Assembly (NCBI GenBank): GCA_029287235.1 | Contig: JARFRM010000224.1 | Coordinates: 41,587-105,586, forward strand | Direction: 5' to 3' | DNA from: Thermoanaerobaculales bacterium | GTDB taxonomy: Bacteria > Acidobacteriota > Thermoanaerobaculia > Thermoanaerobaculales > Sulfomarinibacteraceae | Length of the DNA: 64,000 nt | Part shown: in pieces, positions 2,964-27,494 of the stretch | How the letters are laid out: every line of letters starts with the position of its first letter | Position numbering within the stretch: position 1 is the stretch's first letter | Notes under the pieces: generated by a model | Database searches by the model: none | What the model was told of the DNA's origin: nothing | What the model saw: only the letters and a program-made list of their open reading frames with translations | Translations under genes and position numbers: made by a program

Positions 2964-3560
2964 ATGAAGGTCCTGCTGGTCAATCCGGACTATGAGATCG
3001 AGCGTTACATGGGCCGCCACTTCGGCCGAATGGGCTGGGTGATGCCGCCCATGGGTCTTCTCTATCTCGCCGCCGCCTTGGAGAATGAAGGCATCGGCGT
3101 TTCAATCTACGACGCCCAGATCGAGGAGCGTTCGCTTAGGGACGTCGTAGCCGAGGAAAGCCCCGAGATCGTCGGCATCACCTGCGCGACGGCCCTGGTG
3201 GGCAGCACCCTGGCTGCGGCGAAGATGGTCAAGGCGGCCATTCCCGCCACCACGGTGGTGACCGGCGGCGTCCACCCAACCGTCCGTCCGAACGATCTTC
3301 TCGAGGGAGGAGACGTGGATATCGACGATTGGATGCAGCTGAGCTCCATGGGCGGCTATCGGGAGGACGAGCTCTTTTATGTCCCCGAGGGCCGCGACTC
3401 CGACGAGCTCAAACGCCTCCAGCGCCGGGCCAACTTCGGTTTCTACTTCCGTCCGCGCATCATGCTCGGTTTCGTCGGCCGGATCCGTTCCTTCGGCGAG
3501 CTCGGCGAGTACGCCCGCGGCGCGTGGGGTTTGTTGAAAGCCACCGTCGCGCCGTATTGA
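2964..3560 (+). CDS. Cobalamin-binding domain protein; radical SAM core apparently missing (possible pseudogene)
   Basis: N-term MKVLLVNPDYE...MPPMGLLYLAAALENEGIGVSIYDAQ...GGVHPTVRP is B12-binding; C-term YVPEGRDSDELKRLQRRANFGFYFRPR resembles the tail of B12-radical SAM enzymes; no CxxxCxxC between. Confidence 0.7.
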   Translation: MKVLLVNPDYEIERYMGRHFGRMGWVMPPMGLLYLAAALENEGIGVSIYDAQIEERSLRDVVAEESPEIVGITCATALVGSTLAAAKMVKAAIPATTVVTGGVHPTVRPNDLLEGGDVDIDDWMQLSSMGGYREDELFYVPEGRDSDELKRLQRRANFGFYFRPRIMLGFVGRIRSFGELGEYARGAWGLLKATVAPY

Positions 3561-19019: not shown

Positions 19020-20177
19020 ATGGATTTCTCGAGCCGCGAATCGCCCCGGTCTCCCCACGAGCTGAGCCCCGAAGACGTACTCCTCTTAAAGGTCTGCGTC
19101 GCGGCCATCTGGTCGGACGGCGCCATGGCGGCGGCGGAGCGCGATCACCTGAGCCACCTCATGGATCGGATCGGCGCCACCGAGGAGGAGCGCCACGAAC
19201 TGCGTCGAATTGCGCTGAACGATGTCAGCCGGAGCACGGTGCTGGCCGAGGTGGACTTGCTCGACGCCGGAGACAAGCGCCGCCTCTACGATCGCTGCGT
19301 GGCGGTGCTGACGGCCGATCGCCGCCTTCGGCGTGGCGAGTTGCGCTTTGTCTCCCGACTCCGCAGGCGGTCCGGGGTGGGGCTGTTGGCCCATCAGGTC
19401 ATGCTGTGGCGAGCGATGCCCGTGCGCCGGGTTCTCCGGTTTTCACTGCCGGTGGGTCTCTTCTTCATCGCTGCGGTGGCGGTGCTCCTCATTCGCTTCG
19501 CCGGCGACCCCGAGACCTTCCCACCCAACGAGCTCGCCTACCACCCCGAGATCCTGCTTCGCCAGGCGGCGGCCGGTACGGCTCCGATGGAGGCGGAGGC
19601 CCTCTTCGAGGCCATCCGCCACTCGGTGGTCAAGGTCAATGTCCTGATCGACCAGGGTGTCGTCGGCCACGGATCGGGCGCGGTGCTCGGTGTCGACGGC
19701 GAAGGCCAGCTCTATGTGCTCACCAATCGGCACGTGGTCTACCAGGAGGTGGCAAACCCACTCTTGCTGAGCTACGAGCTCGAGCTCGAGAACGGGATCC
19801 AACTGCCGGCCATGCTCGACTTCTACTCCCGCACCCATGATCTGGCCACCGTCGTGGCTCCCGGTCTCGGCGGCTGGGGCCTGCCCGTCCCGTTGCGGAT
19901 GTGCAGTACCCTCTCGGTCGGCGAGAAGGTCTTCGCCCTCGGCAGCCCTATCGGCCTCGACCACAGCTTCACCACGGGGGTGATCTCGGCCCTGCGTTGG
20001 CCCATGGTCCAGACCGACGCCACCGTCCACTCCGGTTCGTCCGGTGGACCGCTCTTCGACGACCGAGGACGGGTCTGTGGGGTGATCACAACCTCGCACA
20101 TGCAGAAGGATTTTTCTTTCGCCCTGTGCACGGAAACCGTTCTCGAGATGCTCGACGAGCGGATGACGGTGGACTGA
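19020..20177 (+). CDS. TerB-like N-terminal domain fused through a TM segment to a trypsin-like serine protease
   Basis: LKVCVAAIWSDGAMAAAERDHLSHLMDRIG; TM FSLPVGLFFIAAVAVLLI; LTNRHVVYQ, HDLATVV, HSGSSGGPLFD triad context. Confidence 0.8.
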   Translation: MDFSSRESPRSPHELSPEDVLLLKVCVAAIWSDGAMAAAERDHLSHLMDRIGATEEERHELRRIALNDVSRSTVLAEVDLLDAGDKRRLYDRCVAVLTADRRLRRGELRFVSRLRRRSGVGLLAHQVMLWRAMPVRRVLRFSLPVGLFFIAAVAVLLIRFAGDPETFPPNELAYHPEILLRQAAAGTAPMEAEALFEAIRHSVVKVNVLIDQGVVGHGSGAVLGVDGEGQLYVLTNRHVVYQEVANPLLLSYELELENGIQLPAMLDFYSRTHDLATVVAPGLGGWGLPVPLRMCSTLSVGEKVFALGSPIGLDHSFTTGVISALRWPMVQTDATVHSGSSGGPLFDDRGRVCGVITTSHMQKDFSFALCTETVLEMLDERMTVD

Positions 20178-20428
20178 GGGGCCTCGATCGCCATCGCCAT
20201 ATCGATCGCTATCGACGATCAGCTGCAGCCCGTCGAGGGGCGGACGCGAAGCAGCCCGGATCATCCTCGTGCGGGCGAAAAGCCCGCTTGACAATGGCGT
20301 TCGGTATCCGTTCAGGGACAGGCGGGATCGGTTGTTCGATCAGCCACGTGAAACCGATCTCGCGAATCGCTGATTCCCCCGGGATCTCGACGTCAAACAC
20401 GGCGGGATCGCGACCGTGACGAGCATCA

Positions 20429-20457
20429 TTGACAGTAGCGGCTACTCGTCATAGTAT
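20429..20457 (+). promoter_or_regulatory. Putative sigma70-type promoter of the small peptide gene
   Basis: TTGACA (20429-20434), 17-nt spacer, TAGTAT (20452-20457), then RBS-like GGGAGG just before ATG at 20494. Confidence 0.6.
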
Positions 20458-20493
20458 GACAGCGACGAATTTTCTCGCTTGGGAGGGCGTAAA

Positions 20494-20694
20494 ATGAGAT
20501 TGAAACACTATCGCTTGACTCTTTTTGTTGTCGCGGTTTGGGTGTTGGCTCTCGGGCTCACCACCGTCTTCGCACCCGTTCCGGTGGATGCGGCCGTCCA
20601 GAAGGTGGGGTGGATGACCTACGCCCCCAACCATCCCGGCAGTTGCGTACCGCTGGCGTTCGACTGCTATGTCCTCTGGGTCTATCCGGACTGA
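20494..20694 (+). CDS. 66-aa secreted peptide with two cysteines
   Basis: MRLKHYRLTLFVVAVWVLALGLTTVFAPVPVDA-AVQKVGWMTYAPNHPGSCVPLAFDCYVLWVYPD: signal peptide plus short mature part; good promoter and RBS. Confidence 0.65.
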   Translation: MRLKHYRLTLFVVAVWVLALGLTTVFAPVPVDAAVQKVGWMTYAPNHPGSCVPLAFDCYVLWVYPD

Positions 20695-20704
20695 TCATCG
20701 ACCC

Positions 20705-21778
20705 GTGAATCGCCACATCCCGATCACGGCCGGTCTGACCGGCGCGATCTGCCTCGCCGGTCTTGCCAGCGGACTCGAGCCGGCCGCCCTGGGTGAATCC
20801 ATTCGCTGCGAGGTCCGGGCTGTCGCCATCGACCGACCGGCCTACATGGTGGTCGACGCGGTCGTTCGGGGCGACCGTCTTCTCTTGCCGGACTACACCA
20901 ACGGACTGCGCGAGATCGACCTCGGTACCGGAGCGGATCTGCGGTCCGTGCTGCCCATGGGTTCCAAACGCGGCCAGGTCACCGGCCCGCAGCATCTCGG
21001 CTGCGGCGGCGGCCGTTGTGTGGTTTTCGGGGACCGCTACTTCTGGATCTACTACAACGCGGGCTTCGAGTTCATCGACGAGTACCCGGGTCTGACCACC
21101 GGCGCCGGCGCCCAACCTCTGGTCTTCGCCGACCGGATGGTGGTGGCGGGCACGGCCAGCCCGGAGATCTCCGGCGGCGGAGTTCCCTTTCTCTTTGTCC
21201 AGTACGATGACGGTTCGGTGGTGCCGCTGCAAGAGTACCCGACCGGGATGGGAATCCCCGAGATCGCCAAACGGATCCATTTCCAGGGACCCACGGCGGG
21301 CGGGGTCGACCGGCTTGCCGATGGCGGCTGGGTCTATGTCGATCCGCGCAGCTACGGGGTCTTCGTTTTCGACCGACGCGACCGGCTGATTCGGGCATGG
21401 CGGGGGACGAACCCGCGCTTCAGACCGCCCAACTTCGCGGTCTACGAGCCGGTGCACGACGATTCGGGTCGGGAATATTTCTCCCGCTGGAGCCTGGCCC
21501 AGACCCAGGTCAAACGACCGGTGGCGCTGGGCCCGGATCTCATCGGCATCGTGGTCGGGATTCCCGACGGCGAGTTCCAACAACGACACGAGCTCGATCT
21601 CTACCGGTTGGATGGATCGCCGGTGGCCACCGGCGTCGATCTGCCGGGGGTCAAGGGCGGTCGAATCGTGGTTGCCGATGCCGGCCTCGGCAAGATCGTG
21701 GTGGTCGGACAGTCAAGCTGGGAGCCGGGATCGAAAACCATGGCATGGAAGGTAACTGTCAGAGGTCTTGAACACTGA
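20705..21778 (+). CDS. Secreted beta-propeller-like hypothetical protein
   Basis: GTG start, signal peptide NRHIPITAGLTGAICLAGLASG; repeated blade-like strands (LLLPDYTNGLREIDLGTG, VYVDPRSYGVFVFDRRDRLIRAW). Confidence 0.55.
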   Translation: MNRHIPITAGLTGAICLAGLASGLEPAALGESIRCEVRAVAIDRPAYMVVDAVVRGDRLLLPDYTNGLREIDLGTGADLRSVLPMGSKRGQVTGPQHLGCGGGRCVVFGDRYFWIYYNAGFEFIDEYPGLTTGAGAQPLVFADRMVVAGTASPEISGGGVPFLFVQYDDGSVVPLQEYPTGMGIPEIAKRIHFQGPTAGGVDRLADGGWVYVDPRSYGVFVFDRRDRLIRAWRGTNPRFRPPNFAVYEPVHDDSGREYFSRWSLAQTQVKRPVALGPDLIGIVVGIPDGEFQQRHELDLYRLDGSPVATGVDLPGVKGGRIVVADAGLGKIVVVGQSSWEPGSKTMAWKVTVRGLEH

Positions 21779-21828
21779 GTCGTCGCGCGCGAGGGCGCGT
21801 CACGCACCGCATCATTTCGGAGGGCACG

Positions 21829-24800
21829 ATGCAGCGTGAAATCGTCGGAGTCGTTGTACTCACGCTGGTTGCAGGGTTTGCCGGCGCGGCGCCCCGGGTG
21901 CTGGGTCCCGACGATCGTCCCATCGACCGCGCCGCAGTGGTCGCCCATGCCGACGCTTTCTGGGTCCGAAACGGCGCCAGTCTGCCGGTGCTGTTGACGC
22001 CCGATGCCGACGATCAGCTTCGCCTCCCCGACCTTCCAGTGGCCCGGCTGCTGGTCCTCGATGCGACCACCGGACGACCGGTGCCCACAGGCCGCCTCAG
22101 ATGGCCGGGCGCCGAGATCCCCGACAGCGTTTCGATGGTCAGCTGGAGGGCCAACGGCGGCCGGCTCGATCTCGGCTGTCTCGGCGGCGAAAAGGTGGAG
22201 TTCTCCGCCGATGGCTACCGGCCCCTGACCGTCACCCTGGAACCACAGAGTCGACGCACGACGATCCTCCTCGAACCGCACGGCGATCTCGAAGTCTTGG
22301 TGCACCCCCCCCTGGCCGGCCGGTTGTGGATCGCCGCACGGGACGAGATCTCGACTCTTTCTCCATTCTATTCGGCCGCGACGCAGCATGCGATCGGCGA
22401 CGACGGTTCCATCGTGGTGCGCGACCTGGACGCGAAAACCGCCTACGACGGGGTACTGGTCGTTCCCGGAAGGACGCCGGTTGTCGGCCACATCATGGGA
22501 CTGCCGAAGCGCCTCCAGCTCAGGCTCGATCCGGGTCATGCCATCACCGGTCGAGTGCTCGATCGCAGGGGCGCTCCGCTGGTCCGCGCTCGAGTCGAGG
22601 CCGTCGGCACCCTCGAAGACCTGGGCGGATTCCGCTACCGTCAACTCGGTTCGACCGATGCCGAGGGTCGATACACCGTCACCGGTCTCCTGGCCGGTGA
22701 GATCACGGTCAAGGCCTGTGCGCAGCGCCACGCCTGCGCCGAGACCACCATCGCGGTTGAAGACGGCAGCGTCCCGCGCGCCGATTTCAAGCTGGCGCCC
22801 GGTCATGATCTTCGGCTCGTGATCCAGAACGAGTACGGGAGGCCTGCTGCGGGCGCGATCGTGATCGACACGGCGGCCTACCGCAAGTACGAGACCGATG
22901 ACGAGGGTGTGCTCGTCTTCGAGGGAGTCGAGCCCGGCGACGAGCTCGAGCTCGAGATCTTCGGCGCCGGTCTCCGCCCGTGGCAGGGCCGCATCGACAC
23001 AGATCAGCGCGAGGTCGTGCTGGCCATCGCCGCCGGCGGCGTCCTCGAGTGGCCCATTCTCACCGACCGGGAGCTGGCGCAGGAGGACGTGGTCGCCACC
23101 TGGTCCAGACTCAACGGTCAGGGGCGAGAAGTCGCGGACGGTTTCGCCCACTGGGATGTCGAGGCGCGGGTCGTCCGTGCCGACGGGCTTGACGCCGGCA
23201 GCCACCGCCTCGAAGTCCGTCTACCCGGCGCCACCACCCTTCACAGCGAGCTGGCCGAGGTCGGCCTCGGCGAAGAGATCCAGTTGCCTGCAACGGTGCC
23301 CGAGAGGGGTTTGGCCATCGCCGGTCGAGTGCTCGACGGCACGACGATCCTTCCCGTTGCCGGGGCGCGGGTGAGCTGCGCACCGGGCTCGCCCCACCAA
23401 TTCAGAAAACCACAGCACCTCGAGCGCCTGCAGACAACCATCACCGACGCCGACGGGATCTTCCTGCTCGAAGGGCTCGACCCGGGCAGCTGCCGAGCGG
23501 TCGTCCGCGCACCGGGATTCGCGAGCTGGCGCCGCGACGGTGTCGAACCCGACGAGGCTGGGGTCGATCTGGGCGACATCGAGCTCGACCACGGAATGAC
23601 CGTGGTCGGCCGGGTCCTCGACCGGTCGAACCGGCCGCAGGCGGGGATCTCGGTGGAGATCACCGAGGATGCCGCCTACGCCTACTTTGCCGAGACAACC
23701 GTTCGGACCGACCACGACGGCTGGTTTCGATTCGAGAACCTGCCCGTCGGCAGCTGGGAACTCCGCGCCAGCCGCGGCGACCAGACCGCCCGCACCACGA
23801 TCACAGGTCGGCGGGATGAAACCTCCTCCGTTGAGCTTCGGCTGGGCGGGCTCCGCCTCGAAGGCGAGGTCTGGATCGGCGATCGCCCGGCGTCGGGCGG
23901 ACATCTGGTCCTCGCCACCGGTGGCGCCCGGGGCGACGGGGTGGTGGTCATGGTGCAGTCCGACGTCGAGCAACGTCGCTTCTTCGGGATCGACCGGTCA
24001 CCCGTCTCCATCGCGGTCGCCGGCGACGGGCGATTCGCCAGTGACGGGATCTCCCCCGGGGTCTACACGGCTTCCTACACCCCACCCGGCGCTGGTGGCG
24101 CTCCCGTCAGCCGGGAGTTGGTGATTCCACAGACCGAGCTTCACCGCTGCCTGATCCGGTTCTCGGACGCCGGGCTCGAAGGCATCGTGATCGACCCCGA
24201 CGGGCTCCCGGTGGCCGGAGCGGCAATCGTCGTCCAAACACGCGACGGTCGCGCGGTGGCCAACGGATTCAGCGATGGTGAGGGTGCCTTTGCCTTCATC
24301 GGGTTGGACGCCGGGGCCGTTCGTGTCGGGGCGATCCACAGCGGGTTCGGAGACGCCAGCCCCTTGGATGTTGAGCTTCGGGCCGGCGATCGTGTCGGAC
24401 CGGTCACCCTCGAGCTGCGAGCCCCCGACGGCGCAGAGGTCAAGCTGCAGGTCCGATCGGCTGCGGGATCATTGTCCGGCGCGCCGGTCTATCTGGTCGG
24501 CGCCGAGACCATGACCAACTTCACCGATGGCCAGGGAATCGCCGGTTTCACGGGCGTCGAACCCGGCCGTTACCGGCCGTGCGCAGCGGCCTATGGCGGT
24601 GCGGCCGGATGCGGGCCCGAAATCGCGCTCGGCGACGGCGATCAACGAGAGCTGGTCCTCGATCTCGGTAGGGGCGGCCACGTCGATGTTCTGGTCGGAC
24701 CCATGGAACGGCCACCGGCGCTGCGGGTCCTGACCGCCGATGGCATTGATCTGACGAGTATGCTGATGATGGTCAGTCCACCCATCCCGGGTCCCGAAGG

Positions 24801-24921
24801 CGTGCAGCTCGGCCCCCTCAAGACCGATGACTATCGGATCACCGTGGCCATGTCCGAAGGCCCCCGGCAGGGGACCATCGGCGCCATCGAGGGGGAGACG
24901 ACGATCCTCGATCTGCGGTAG
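21829..24921 (+). CDS. Carboxypeptidase-regulatory-like (Cna-B-like fold) multi-repeat protein
   Basis: 1030 aa with repeated GRVLDRRGAPLVRARV, GRVLDGTTILPVAGARV, GRVLDRSNRPQAGISVEI and DADGIFLLEGLDPG-type motifs. Confidence 0.75.
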   Translation: MQREIVGVVVLTLVAGFAGAAPRVLGPDDRPIDRAAVVAHADAFWVRNGASLPVLLTPDADDQLRLPDLPVARLLVLDATTGRPVPTGRLRWPGAEIPDSVSMVSWRANGGRLDLGCLGGEKVEFSADGYRPLTVTLEPQSRRTTILLEPHGDLEVLVHPPLAGRLWIAARDEISTLSPFYSAATQHAIGDDGSIVVRDLDAKTAYDGVLVVPGRTPVVGHIMGLPKRLQLRLDPGHAITGRVLDRRGAPLVRARVEAVGTLEDLGGFRYRQLGSTDAEGRYTVTGLLAGEITVKACAQRHACAETTIAVEDGSVPRADFKLAPGHDLRLVIQNEYGRPAAGAIVIDTAAYRKYETDDEGVLVFEGVEPGDELELEIFGAGLRPWQGRIDTDQREVVLAIAAGGVLEWPILTDRELAQEDVVATWSRLNGQGREVADGFAHWDVEARVVRADGLDAGSHRLEVRLPGATTLHSELAEVGLGEEIQLPATVPERGLAIAGRVLDGTTILPVAGARVSCAPGSPHQFRKPQHLERLQTTITDADGIFLLEGLDPGSCRAVVRAPGFASWRRDGVEPDEAGVDLGDIELDHGMTVVGRVLDRSNRPQAGISVEITEDAAYAYFAETTVRTDHDGWFRFENLPVGSWELRASRGDQTARTTITGRRDETSSVELRLGGLRLEGEVWIGDRPASGGHLVLATGGARGDGVVVMVQSDVEQRRFFGIDRSPVSIAVAGDGRFASDGISPGVYTASYTPPGAGGAPVSRELVIPQTELHRCLIRFSDAGLEGIVIDPDGLPVAGAAIVVQTRDGRAVANGFSDGEGAFAFIGLDAGAVRVGAIHSGFGDASPLDVELRAGDRVGPVTLELRAPDGAEVKLQVRSAAGSLSGAPVYLVGAETMTNFTDGQGIAGFTGVEPGRYRPCAAAYGGAAGCGPEIALGDGDQRELVLDLGRGGHVDVLVGPMERPPALRVLTADGIDLTSMLMMVSPPIPGPEGVQLGPLKTDDYRITVAMSEGPRQGTIGAIEGETTILDLR

Positions 24922-25094
24922 CTCCGGTCGCTGTTTTTTGCGTCGAAACCACAAGAACACCACAGGATTGAACCGAGAAGACGCGAGGAACGCAAAGACC
25001 TCGCTTCTTCAACGCAGAGACATCGCAATTGAGAGTTGGCGGTGCAGAACGTCGAGGATCCCTGACTTTATCGGAGGTCCGAAGTATCCACCGC

Positions 25095-27494
25095 CTACCT
25101 CCGGCGTCCTCCTCCGCCACGTGATCGGGCAGCGCCACCGCTGCTGCGGTTCATCTGCTGCGATCGTTGGCTGCCGCGTTGGCGGGCATTGTAATCCCGG
25201 CTCATGGAGCTGCCGCTGGAGTAGGACGGCTGGGTTGTCGGCCTGCTCGACCCGCCCGTCGACGGTCTGGTTGACGGCTGAACTCGGGAACCCGAGGAGA
25301 GATTTCCACCCGAGAGCTCCGGGGTACCCCCTGAAGGTCGGGTCGACGGTTGGGTCCCGGTTGACGGTCTCGTCTGACCGCCACCCGTGGTCGGCCGGTT
25401 GATCTCACCCGTTGATGGACGGGTCGCCGGCTGGGTTCCCGCCGACGGACGGCTCCGATCGCCGGCCGAAGGCACGCCATCGGTCTTGGACCAACCGCCC
25501 CGGTCACGCCGGTCCCAGCTGCCGTCGTTGTTGCGGCGGAAGACGTCACCGTTGCGATCGGTGTAGACGTTGTTGGCTCGGTTGTTTGAGACCTTGGGCT
25601 GTTGGCTGGGTCGAGCCCGGTCCCGGGTCTGGGCAACCCGCCTGCTGTTGTCTGGACGGGCATAGATATTGTTCCTGGTTGATGGCCGGGAATAATGCGA
25701 GGGACGGTTGCCGTGACGGTAGCCCGCCCGATACCCGGCGCGATAACCCGCGCGAAAACCTGCGCGGTGGTATGGATAGGGCCGGTACCTTCCCGGCCCC
25801 CACCAACCACCCCAACGACCATAGCGTCCCCACCCACCAAAACCGATGGTGAAACGGAAGGGCCCGTTGGAGTAGCTCAGACCAAAGCTCCAGCCGTACC
25901 ACGGGTTCCAGCGGACGTGAAACCCCCAGGTGGCGGGACGAGGATAGTAGTAGTGGCCCCACCACGGACGGTACCACCAGCCTGTGCCGTAGACCACACA
26001 GCCGTGCGAAACATAGCTGCCGGTGTAACCGGGTGTGTAGCCGACATAGACCACCTCGGGGGTGGACTCGTAGATGTGGACGTGGGTGACGTTGTAGACC
26101 GGGCTCGAGGGTGGAATGGTGGAGATCTCGGCGGGAATCTCGGCGGCGACGGTCCACGGACCCTTCGGTGAAGGGGCGGAGTACCAGATGGCCTGATCGC
26201 AGGCCCAGTATTTGCCGTTGGCCAAAATCACCGATGATGCGGTGTTCACGGCGTAGGACATCTCGGTGTCCTCGATGGCCTCGAACTTGGGCTCGCCATC
26301 GTACTCGACGGCAAAGGAGGTGTCGGATCGGTCGACCGCCGCGGTCTGGGGGATCGACTGTTCGAGCACCGCTTCGCGGGCCTCGTCGGTGCCGGCCACA
26401 TGGGCCCTCAGATAGCCGATATCGGAGTCCTCCGGGATCTCGCCGAATGTCTCGGTGAGCTCGTTGTTGGGCACGTGCTCCCACGGGCCATTCTCGAGAT
26501 CCTTGGACCGGTACCAGCGGCCCGAGAGCAGGACATAGTAGTTCTGGCTGGAGACCTCGAAAACCACGTCCGAGTCGGTGTTGCCGACATAGAGGATCTC
26601 GTTGCCCTGCAACGGCGCCATCTCGATGTTGCCGTCGATGAAGATGAGCTCGGCGGGCTCGGTGGAAACGATGATCTCGGGAACCCGTGAGTCGATGTCG
26701 TCGACGGAGACATCCTCGAGCTCCTCCGAGCGTTCCTGCTCCATCTCCTGTCGCTGTTTTTCCAGTTCGGTGTCGATCTTCTTGACGTCTCCCGGGAGCG
26801 ACGTGGTGATCTTCCATGGACCCAGAATGTCACGGGCCGTGTACCAGCTCCGGTCGGAGGCGAGGAAGAAGTCGTAGTCGTTCTTGACGATCACATACGG
26901 AGAGTTGGCCACTCGCTGGAGATCGGAACCTTCGATGTCCTGGTAATCGGGCTGACCGTCGATGAGAATGAGGACCGCCGGTTCATAGCTGATGATGATC
27001 TTCGGCGGGTCGTGTTTGAGCCCCGCTGTGGACTGCTCCTCGTGCTCGGCCAGATCGAGTGAGGGAAGGATCTGGTCGAGTGGGATCTCGAGATTCCAGG
27101 TCGGGATCTCCCGCTCGAGGATCTCGGCGAGTCTCTGCTGTTGCTCCTCGGTGGCCTCCGGGAATCGGACCGACGGCACCCGGATGTCGGTGAAGGTCAC
27201 CATCCGGGTTTCGCGATCGGTTTCATACCGGGAGGTCAGCCAGACCGCGCCGAAGACCGGCGCCGCATCGGCGGTGACCTTGATGGAGACCGCGGCGCGG
27301 CTTTCGACCTCGTTGCCTCCCCAGCTGTCGAGCTGGGGTTGGTACATGGTGATGATGGCGTCGCCGCTCGAGATCTCACGCGGCCACTCCCAGCCCTCCT
27401 CGTCCTGGGCCCCGATCGGCAACGACCACAGAACCACAACCGCAAGAATCCACACAGGCACAACATCGACAGTCCATTTCCCCGGTAGTGTCAT
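25095..27494 (-). CDS. Secreted protein with three tandem WY..GPW repeats and low-complexity Gly/Tyr/Arg then Pro/Ser/Thr tail
   Basis: Repeats around SWYTARDILGPWKI, RWYRSKDLENGPWEH, IWYSAPSPKGPWTV; GFRAGYRAGYRAGYRHGNR; RPSTG/RPTTG arrays. Confidence 0.6.
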   Translation of the reverse strand: MTLPGKWTVDVVPVWILAVVVLWSLPIGAQDEEGWEWPREISSGDAIITMYQPQLDSWGGNEVESRAAVSIKVTADAAPVFGAVWLTSRYETDRETRMVTFTDIRVPSVRFPEATEEQQQRLAEILEREIPTWNLEIPLDQILPSLDLAEHEEQSTAGLKHDPPKIIISYEPAVLILIDGQPDYQDIEGSDLQRVANSPYVIVKNDYDFFLASDRSWYTARDILGPWKITTSLPGDVKKIDTELEKQRQEMEQERSEELEDVSVDDIDSRVPEIIVSTEPAELIFIDGNIEMAPLQGNEILYVGNTDSDVVFEVSSQNYYVLLSGRWYRSKDLENGPWEHVPNNELTETFGEIPEDSDIGYLRAHVAGTDEAREAVLEQSIPQTAAVDRSDTSFAVEYDGEPKFEAIEDTEMSYAVNTASSVILANGKYWACDQAIWYSAPSPKGPWTVAAEIPAEISTIPPSSPVYNVTHVHIYESTPEVVYVGYTPGYTGSYVSHGCVVYGTGWWYRPWWGHYYYPRPATWGFHVRWNPWYGWSFGLSYSNGPFRFTIGFGGWGRYGRWGGWWGPGRYRPYPYHRAGFRAGYRAGYRAGYRHGNRPSHYSRPSTRNNIYARPDNSRRVAQTRDRARPSQQPKVSNNRANNVYTDRNGDVFRRNNDGSWDRRDRGGWSKTDGVPSAGDRSRPSAGTQPATRPSTGEINRPTTGGGQTRPSTGTQPSTRPSGGTPELSGGNLSSGSRVQPSTRPSTGGSSRPTTQPSYSSGSSMSRDYNARQRGSQRSQQMNRSSGGAARSRGGGGRRR

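Follow-up and report, generated by a model that had tools for sequence, protein, structure and literature searches.

A three-gene unit encoding a short exported Cys peptide, an exported beta-propeller protein and a long exported protein with CarboxypepD_reg domains was found in a 64,000-nt stretch of a Thermoanaerobaculales genome (assembly GCA_029287235.1, contig JARFRM010000224.1; hereafter the window), and homology searches indicate that this peptide–propeller–CarboxypepD_reg triad is class-wide in Thermoanaerobaculia. The triad is a real module, with a putative function in the envelope or in signalling. We tentatively read it as an operon in which an exported peptide is encoded together with binding proteins of its own, a reading that we hold with somewhat less than even confidence.

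The three genes lie on the forward strand at 20494–20694, 20705–21778 and 21829–24921, with 10 nt between the peptide and propeller ORFs and 50 nt between the propeller and large-protein ORFs, in the same-strand order and with the gaps that the initial annotation had given. They are preceded by a sigma-70-like promoter, TTGACA-17-TAGTAT (20429–20457, forward strand), with the −35 element at 20429–20434 and the −10 element at 20452–20457, and by a ribosome-binding site, GGGAGGG, at 20481–20487 on the same strand. Both the promoter and the GGGAGG site had been reported initially; they were confirmed in the sequence and are kept in the homologous loci, where TTGACA with a 17-nt spacer and TAnnnT was present in 6/6 and GGAGG likewise in 6/6. 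The promoter was the only sigma-70-like site in the scanned region of 20178–25100, and a terminator-like hairpin with a T-run, a consensus match only, extends across the last stop codon (24915–24931 for the hairpin and 24915–24938 for hairpin plus T-run, forward strand). Given the sole sigma-70-like site in front and the hairpin at the end, the peptide, propeller and large-protein genes look like one operon. N-terminal export signals were recognised by inspection on all three products.

Just upstream of the module, at 19020–20177 on the forward strand, lies the gene of a membrane protein that is trypsin-like (PF13365) and has a weak TerB-like match at its N-terminus. Convergent with the module, a reverse-strand gene at 25095–27494 encodes an exported protein of 799 aa whose tail is rich in Gly, Tyr and Arg and for which Pfam gave no meaningful match; G006 has a homologue at the same place beside the module. 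The protease gene is syntenic within the genus only and the flanks differ in the other genus, so that the conserved unit consists of the three genes.

The 66-aa precursor, for which a signal peptide and a mature part of about 33 aa containing GSCVPLAFDC with two Cys had been described, was recovered as such at 20494–20694. Cleavage is predicted by inspection after Ala33, separating a signal part, MRLKHYRLTLFVVAVWVLALGLTTVFAPVPVDA (codons 20494–20592), from a mature peptide of 33 aa, AVQKVGWMTYAPNHPGSCVPLAFDCYVLWVYPD (20593–20691), in which the Cys residues are Cys51 (20644–20646) and Cys58 (20665–20667). Folding of the peptide alone from five sequences gave a weak model (pTM 0.28) with the signal helix and two strands, 39–43 and 59–63, flanking the Cys loop. 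The window peptide matched no family in Pfam or NCBIfam and nothing in a viral sequence collection, and its matches in the genome collection were confined to four loci that had already been identified.

Among 60 genomes, propeller homologues were strong in six (E ≤ 8e-147) and weak in three, and the peptide was matched (E ≤ 1.4e-13) in exactly the six with strong propeller homologues, the next-best E value being 0.036. The large protein was next in line in all six genomes with the peptide and a close propeller, the order peptide–propeller–large protein was kept in five related genomes (G001, G002, G006, G012 and G017), and the three genes were spaced near-adjacently in the homologous loci. These close loci belong to MAGs of Thermoanaerobaculales bacterium, Acidobacteria bacterium and Candidatus Sulfomarinibacter kjeldsenii (Acidobacteriota, class Thermoanaerobaculia); the genus Ca. 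Sulfomarinibacter has been described (PMC8528874). The initial annotation had named a conserved small ORF upstream of propeller homologues and conservation of the Cys pair as points to check: the small ORF was found in the relatives, and both Cys were invariant in the window family, together with the motif GWMxYxPNHP.

In the peptide alignment of six genomes, 20 columns were invariant, 16 of which fell in the mature part. For the window-family peptide dN was well below dS, the synonymous rate being the higher in every comparison, with 23 synonymous and 4 non-synonymous differences between L043 and L044 and with dS of 0.80 and dN of 0.027 between G006 and G017, and these codon comparisons indicate that it is under purifying selection. 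A short ORF directly behind a promoter could be a regulatory upstream ORF or leader peptide with no product of its own, but the protein-level selection acts on the signal peptide and the mature residues, the Cys and the motif are invariant, and Cys peptides occupy the same slot class-wide, sometimes as the second gene of the operon; such a role is extremely unlikely.

The second gene, with a GTG start and no clear ribosome-binding site, has what looks like a weak translation start. It had been annotated as a 358-aa signal-peptide protein, of which the gene holds and the size does not, as its 358 codons correspond to 357 aa plus the stop. The repeats initially called blade-like are those of a beta-propeller according to both profile and fold: the propeller profile matched the NHL repeats of TRIM71 among PDB sequences (E 1.3e-5), and the structural model, of moderate confidence (pLDDT 69.8, pTM 0.75), had NHL six-bladed propellers as its best Foldseek matches (Brat NHL, E 6.8e-9; blade number not exactly counted). 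No Pfam or NCBIfam family matched the window propeller. A lipobox was found on some propeller homologues, lipoprotein propellers being present in G020, G029 and G403, which fits an envelope location.

Several loci of propeller homologues had features of their own. At G020:C159 (L048), the propeller homologue is split over two frames, a frameshift or pseudogene. In a second family (G023 and G029; L046, L047), a 150–190-aa exported protein directly after the propeller looks thioredoxin-like by eye (CFGC in G023, LPFL), a reading with no support from Pfam, NCBIfam or PDB. The G023 locus (L047) also has, at about 3020–3250 in the oriented sequence and 5' of the propeller, an ORF with a signal peptide (...SDARVIENGLYMCKP) that ends at a TAG; beyond this stop the same frame reads MHVCEL and runs on to the propeller start with an ATGA overlap, the C-x6-C spacing spanning the TAG. 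The interruption may reflect decay or truncation of a peptide gene, or else an error in sequencing.

Layouts with a peptide beside a propeller are known from annotation, and in Bacteroidota NVEALA peptides are found beside 6-bladed beta-propeller proteins. The initial annotation had likened the window genes to these pairs, and the likeness of layout stands, since in both a short exported Cys peptide adjoins a six-bladed-type propeller gene, but membership in the PF14055 and PF17170 families does not. NVEALA (PF14055) had no Pfam match at E ≤ 1 for the window peptide or for six class peptides, and the NVEALA motif was in none of the window-family or class peptide sequences. PF17170 (DUF5128) shares the NHL-type propeller fold with the window propeller, but no match to it was found at E ≤ 1 for 8 window-type propellers or four class propellers. 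The window unit further differs from NVEALA pairs in nearly always including a third gene, of ~1030 aa and with CarboxypepD_reg repeats. In the literature, where most subscription journals were outside the search, nothing was found that dealt with NVEALA peptides or with an operon of this kind. The earlier suggestion of an undescribed system agrees with this result and with the lack of Pfam, NCBIfam or PADLOC matches for the peptide and the propeller.

The third gene encodes a 1030-aa exported multi-repeat protein, which had been called carboxypeptidase-regulatory-like and was confirmed as such by PF13620 (E 3.8e-60; 200.6 bits against a curated cut-off of 32.3; 5 stretches), with homologues in nearly every triad. 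It contains several CarboxypepD_reg domains; the domain is generic and defines no system, and the remaining CarboxypepD_reg proteins of the genomes were mostly generic repeats with neither peptide nor propeller adjoining. At G001:C51 (L100), a second CarboxypepD_reg gene (763 aa) lies behind a different Cys-rich exported ORF (NCTGSCQTCEPLFFGERC...).

A rival reading is that the triad is a structural envelope assembly, that is, a surface or periplasmic complex in which the Cys peptide is a minor structural or capping subunit and neither a ligand nor a message. Surface proteins are commonly built from CarboxypepD_reg repeats and propellers, the best NCBIfam match of the large protein was an S-layer protein (NF052345), a weak match with an E value of 3e-11 and far below its cut-off, and the lipoprotein propellers mentioned above point the same way. 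On the other hand, less variation than in its partners would be expected of a purely structural subunit, whereas the peptide varies most, and no anchoring domain was found in the window large protein. We consider a purely structural role somewhat unlikely.

The extent of the triad across the class was traced from the large protein, the profile of which detected a distant homologue in G007. Upstream of that homologue were a propeller and a Cys-containing signal-peptide ORF (...SFCGGTGSGCIWCVDTIVVNG), both different from those of the window, and these two were used as separate queries against 149 class genomes. The propeller query gave loci in 12 genomes and the peptide query gave matches in six, G007 itself included, and the two kinds of match adjoined in G063, G065, G075 and G106. 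When loci were taken by propeller similarity alone (n = 18), a small exported Cys ORF was found upstream of the propeller in 13 and downstream in 1. A small Cys-rich exported ORF at G134:C144 (L139) is located 3' of its propeller and not 5'. Most class peptides have the core C-x6-C-x2-C; the window family lacks its third Cys, and some class members (G127 and G116) lack it or have it displaced. Searches of class peptides against PDB returned nothing meaningful.

A class-peptide profile was built from ten peptides and run on the class and the phylum, yielding 31 matches, 21 of which were not used for building. A class propeller was present in the flank of 18 of these 21; one match, at the end of a contig, adjoined a CarboxypepD_reg gene; the neighbour of another (G403, from the same phylum and outside the class) was a propeller that matched PF17170 weakly (E 0.0025); and one, the weakest class match (E 0.002), had neither partner. 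The peptide–propeller pairs may thus reach beyond the class, as far as the G403 match goes. In the G403 locus (L183), a 70-codon frame with a signal peptide and CNSDDNHYHGGADHCDSGGSGCTVVCPP lies directly before a lipoprotein propeller. As a mechanical control, a small ORF was found upstream of 13/27 propeller ORFs and 4/167 other long ORFs, a ratio that is indicative only because some propeller loci had themselves been chosen by peptide; three of the four positives among other long ORFs were from loci chosen by peptide search and the fourth was another CarboxypepD_reg locus.

Window-family profiles matched the class large proteins in almost all loci whose flanks were long, and the order peptide–propeller–large protein was found in nearly all class loci, the peptide being second in G080 and G131. 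Propellers with no peptide were found at L132, L137 and L140 and in G020 and G029. Altogether, triads were distributed over about ten GTDB-level families of Thermoanaerobaculia. A tandem array in G132 (G132:C179:1-10000, L136) contained four paralogous propellers and a large-protein remnant, with divergent Cys peptides, at least two and probably three, between the propellers. In family f8, genus g22 (G043, G049, G055, G114, G121 and G127, among others), several paralogous propeller loci were present per genome. Some loci of this genus encode longer peptide precursors (about 150–165 aa), in which the Cys core is followed by a tail that carries another conserved segment (C...SLFERLDRRR-like) close to the C-terminal end.

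We compared the window and class versions of each triad member. Alignment with hhalign extended over 953 columns for the large proteins (E 2.3e-64) and over 313 columns for the propellers (probability 96, E 6e-9), and these profile alignments identify both window proteins as homologues of their class counterparts over the full length. The peptides gave no homology by profile–profile alignment (probability 10) and were not significant against shuffled sequences (p 0.15 to 0.56), and we therefore do not claim a common origin for them. Window and class peptides have in common their slot, a signal peptide, a small size and the C-x6-C spacing, and as a spacing match alone is weak evidence, fast divergence and replacement of the peptide are both possible. 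The peptide is by far the most divergent member of the triad, while the propeller and the large protein vary far less.

The claim that an exported peptide is accompanied by dedicated partner proteins is backed by the conserved triad, the export signal being recognised by inspection. In the operon reading that we favour, the peptide would be made in excess over the weakly started propeller, as the expression signals suggest, and would be exported by Sec. A disulfide across C-x6-C may close a small beta-hairpin in the peptide, which its own propeller could bind, and the long CarboxypepD_reg protein would form an extended scaffold in the envelope or at the surface. In such a scheme the peptide would act as a ligand or effector that varies, with the propeller as the partner matched to it; it may send a signal to kin, affect other cells or stay on the surface as a component. 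That the peptide has both the best expression signals and the greatest variability, and that its partners are conserved, fits an over-produced exported ligand or effector with a matched propeller; likewise, the G132 tandem array and the genus whose genomes hold several propeller paralogues are in keeping with a ligand that diversifies and has partners matched to it. Against this reading, no adjacent exporter across the outer membrane was found among the neighbouring ORFs of the module, some propellers have no peptide, and the window and class peptides show no detectable sequence homology. Extended to the whole class, the reading becomes one of diversified peptides, exported by Sec and disulfide-bonded, each of which has a propeller receptor of its own and a long scaffold; they might constitute a system for peptide communication or kin recognition in Acidobacteriota, undescribed so far, that has no ABC exporter or modification enzymes. 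We regard this broader proposal as unlikely in its full form.

The peptide diversity, the tandem arrays and the multiple paralogues would also suit antagonism, in which the short secreted Cys-stabilised peptide would act as a small bacteriocin-like toxin and its two partners would serve in immunity or display. Two-peptide and double-glycine bacteriocin loci, like the window, encode a small exported Cys peptide, but the window peptide has an ordinary Sec-type signal peptide in place of a GG leader, and no dedicated exporter such as an ABC exporter, no leader peptidase or other protease and no modification enzyme was recognised beside it by inspection of the ORFs of the window and the homologous loci. 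The mature motif is strongly conserved inside the window family, and the PADLOC anti-phage defence profiles gave no match. Antagonism appears improbable to us. A role in metal or thiol chemistry, in which the Cys peptide binds a metal or exchanges disulfides and the propeller is its holder, could draw on the C-x6-C-x2-C core of most class peptides and on the thioredoxin-like-looking gene after the propeller in G023 and G029, but the peptide has no His or Met metal cluster, the window family has no third Cys and the thioredoxin-like reading found no database support; we judge it decidedly improbable.

Gene callers routinely overlook short secreted peptides; here a short peptide ORF led to a conserved operon in an abundant and hardly studied class of sediment and soil bacteria, Thermoanaerobaculia. 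The triad is old, being found in about ten GTDB-level families, and multi-copy in one genus, and its peptide and propeller belong to no annotated family. As the peptide is the fastest-changing part, the triad has the pattern expected of a ligand–receptor or recognition system. It offers a concrete way into a question that has long lacked an answer, why small Cys peptides are paired with beta-propellers in Gram-negative bacteria, and, if the model of matched peptide–propeller pairs is true, the system would be categorically new.
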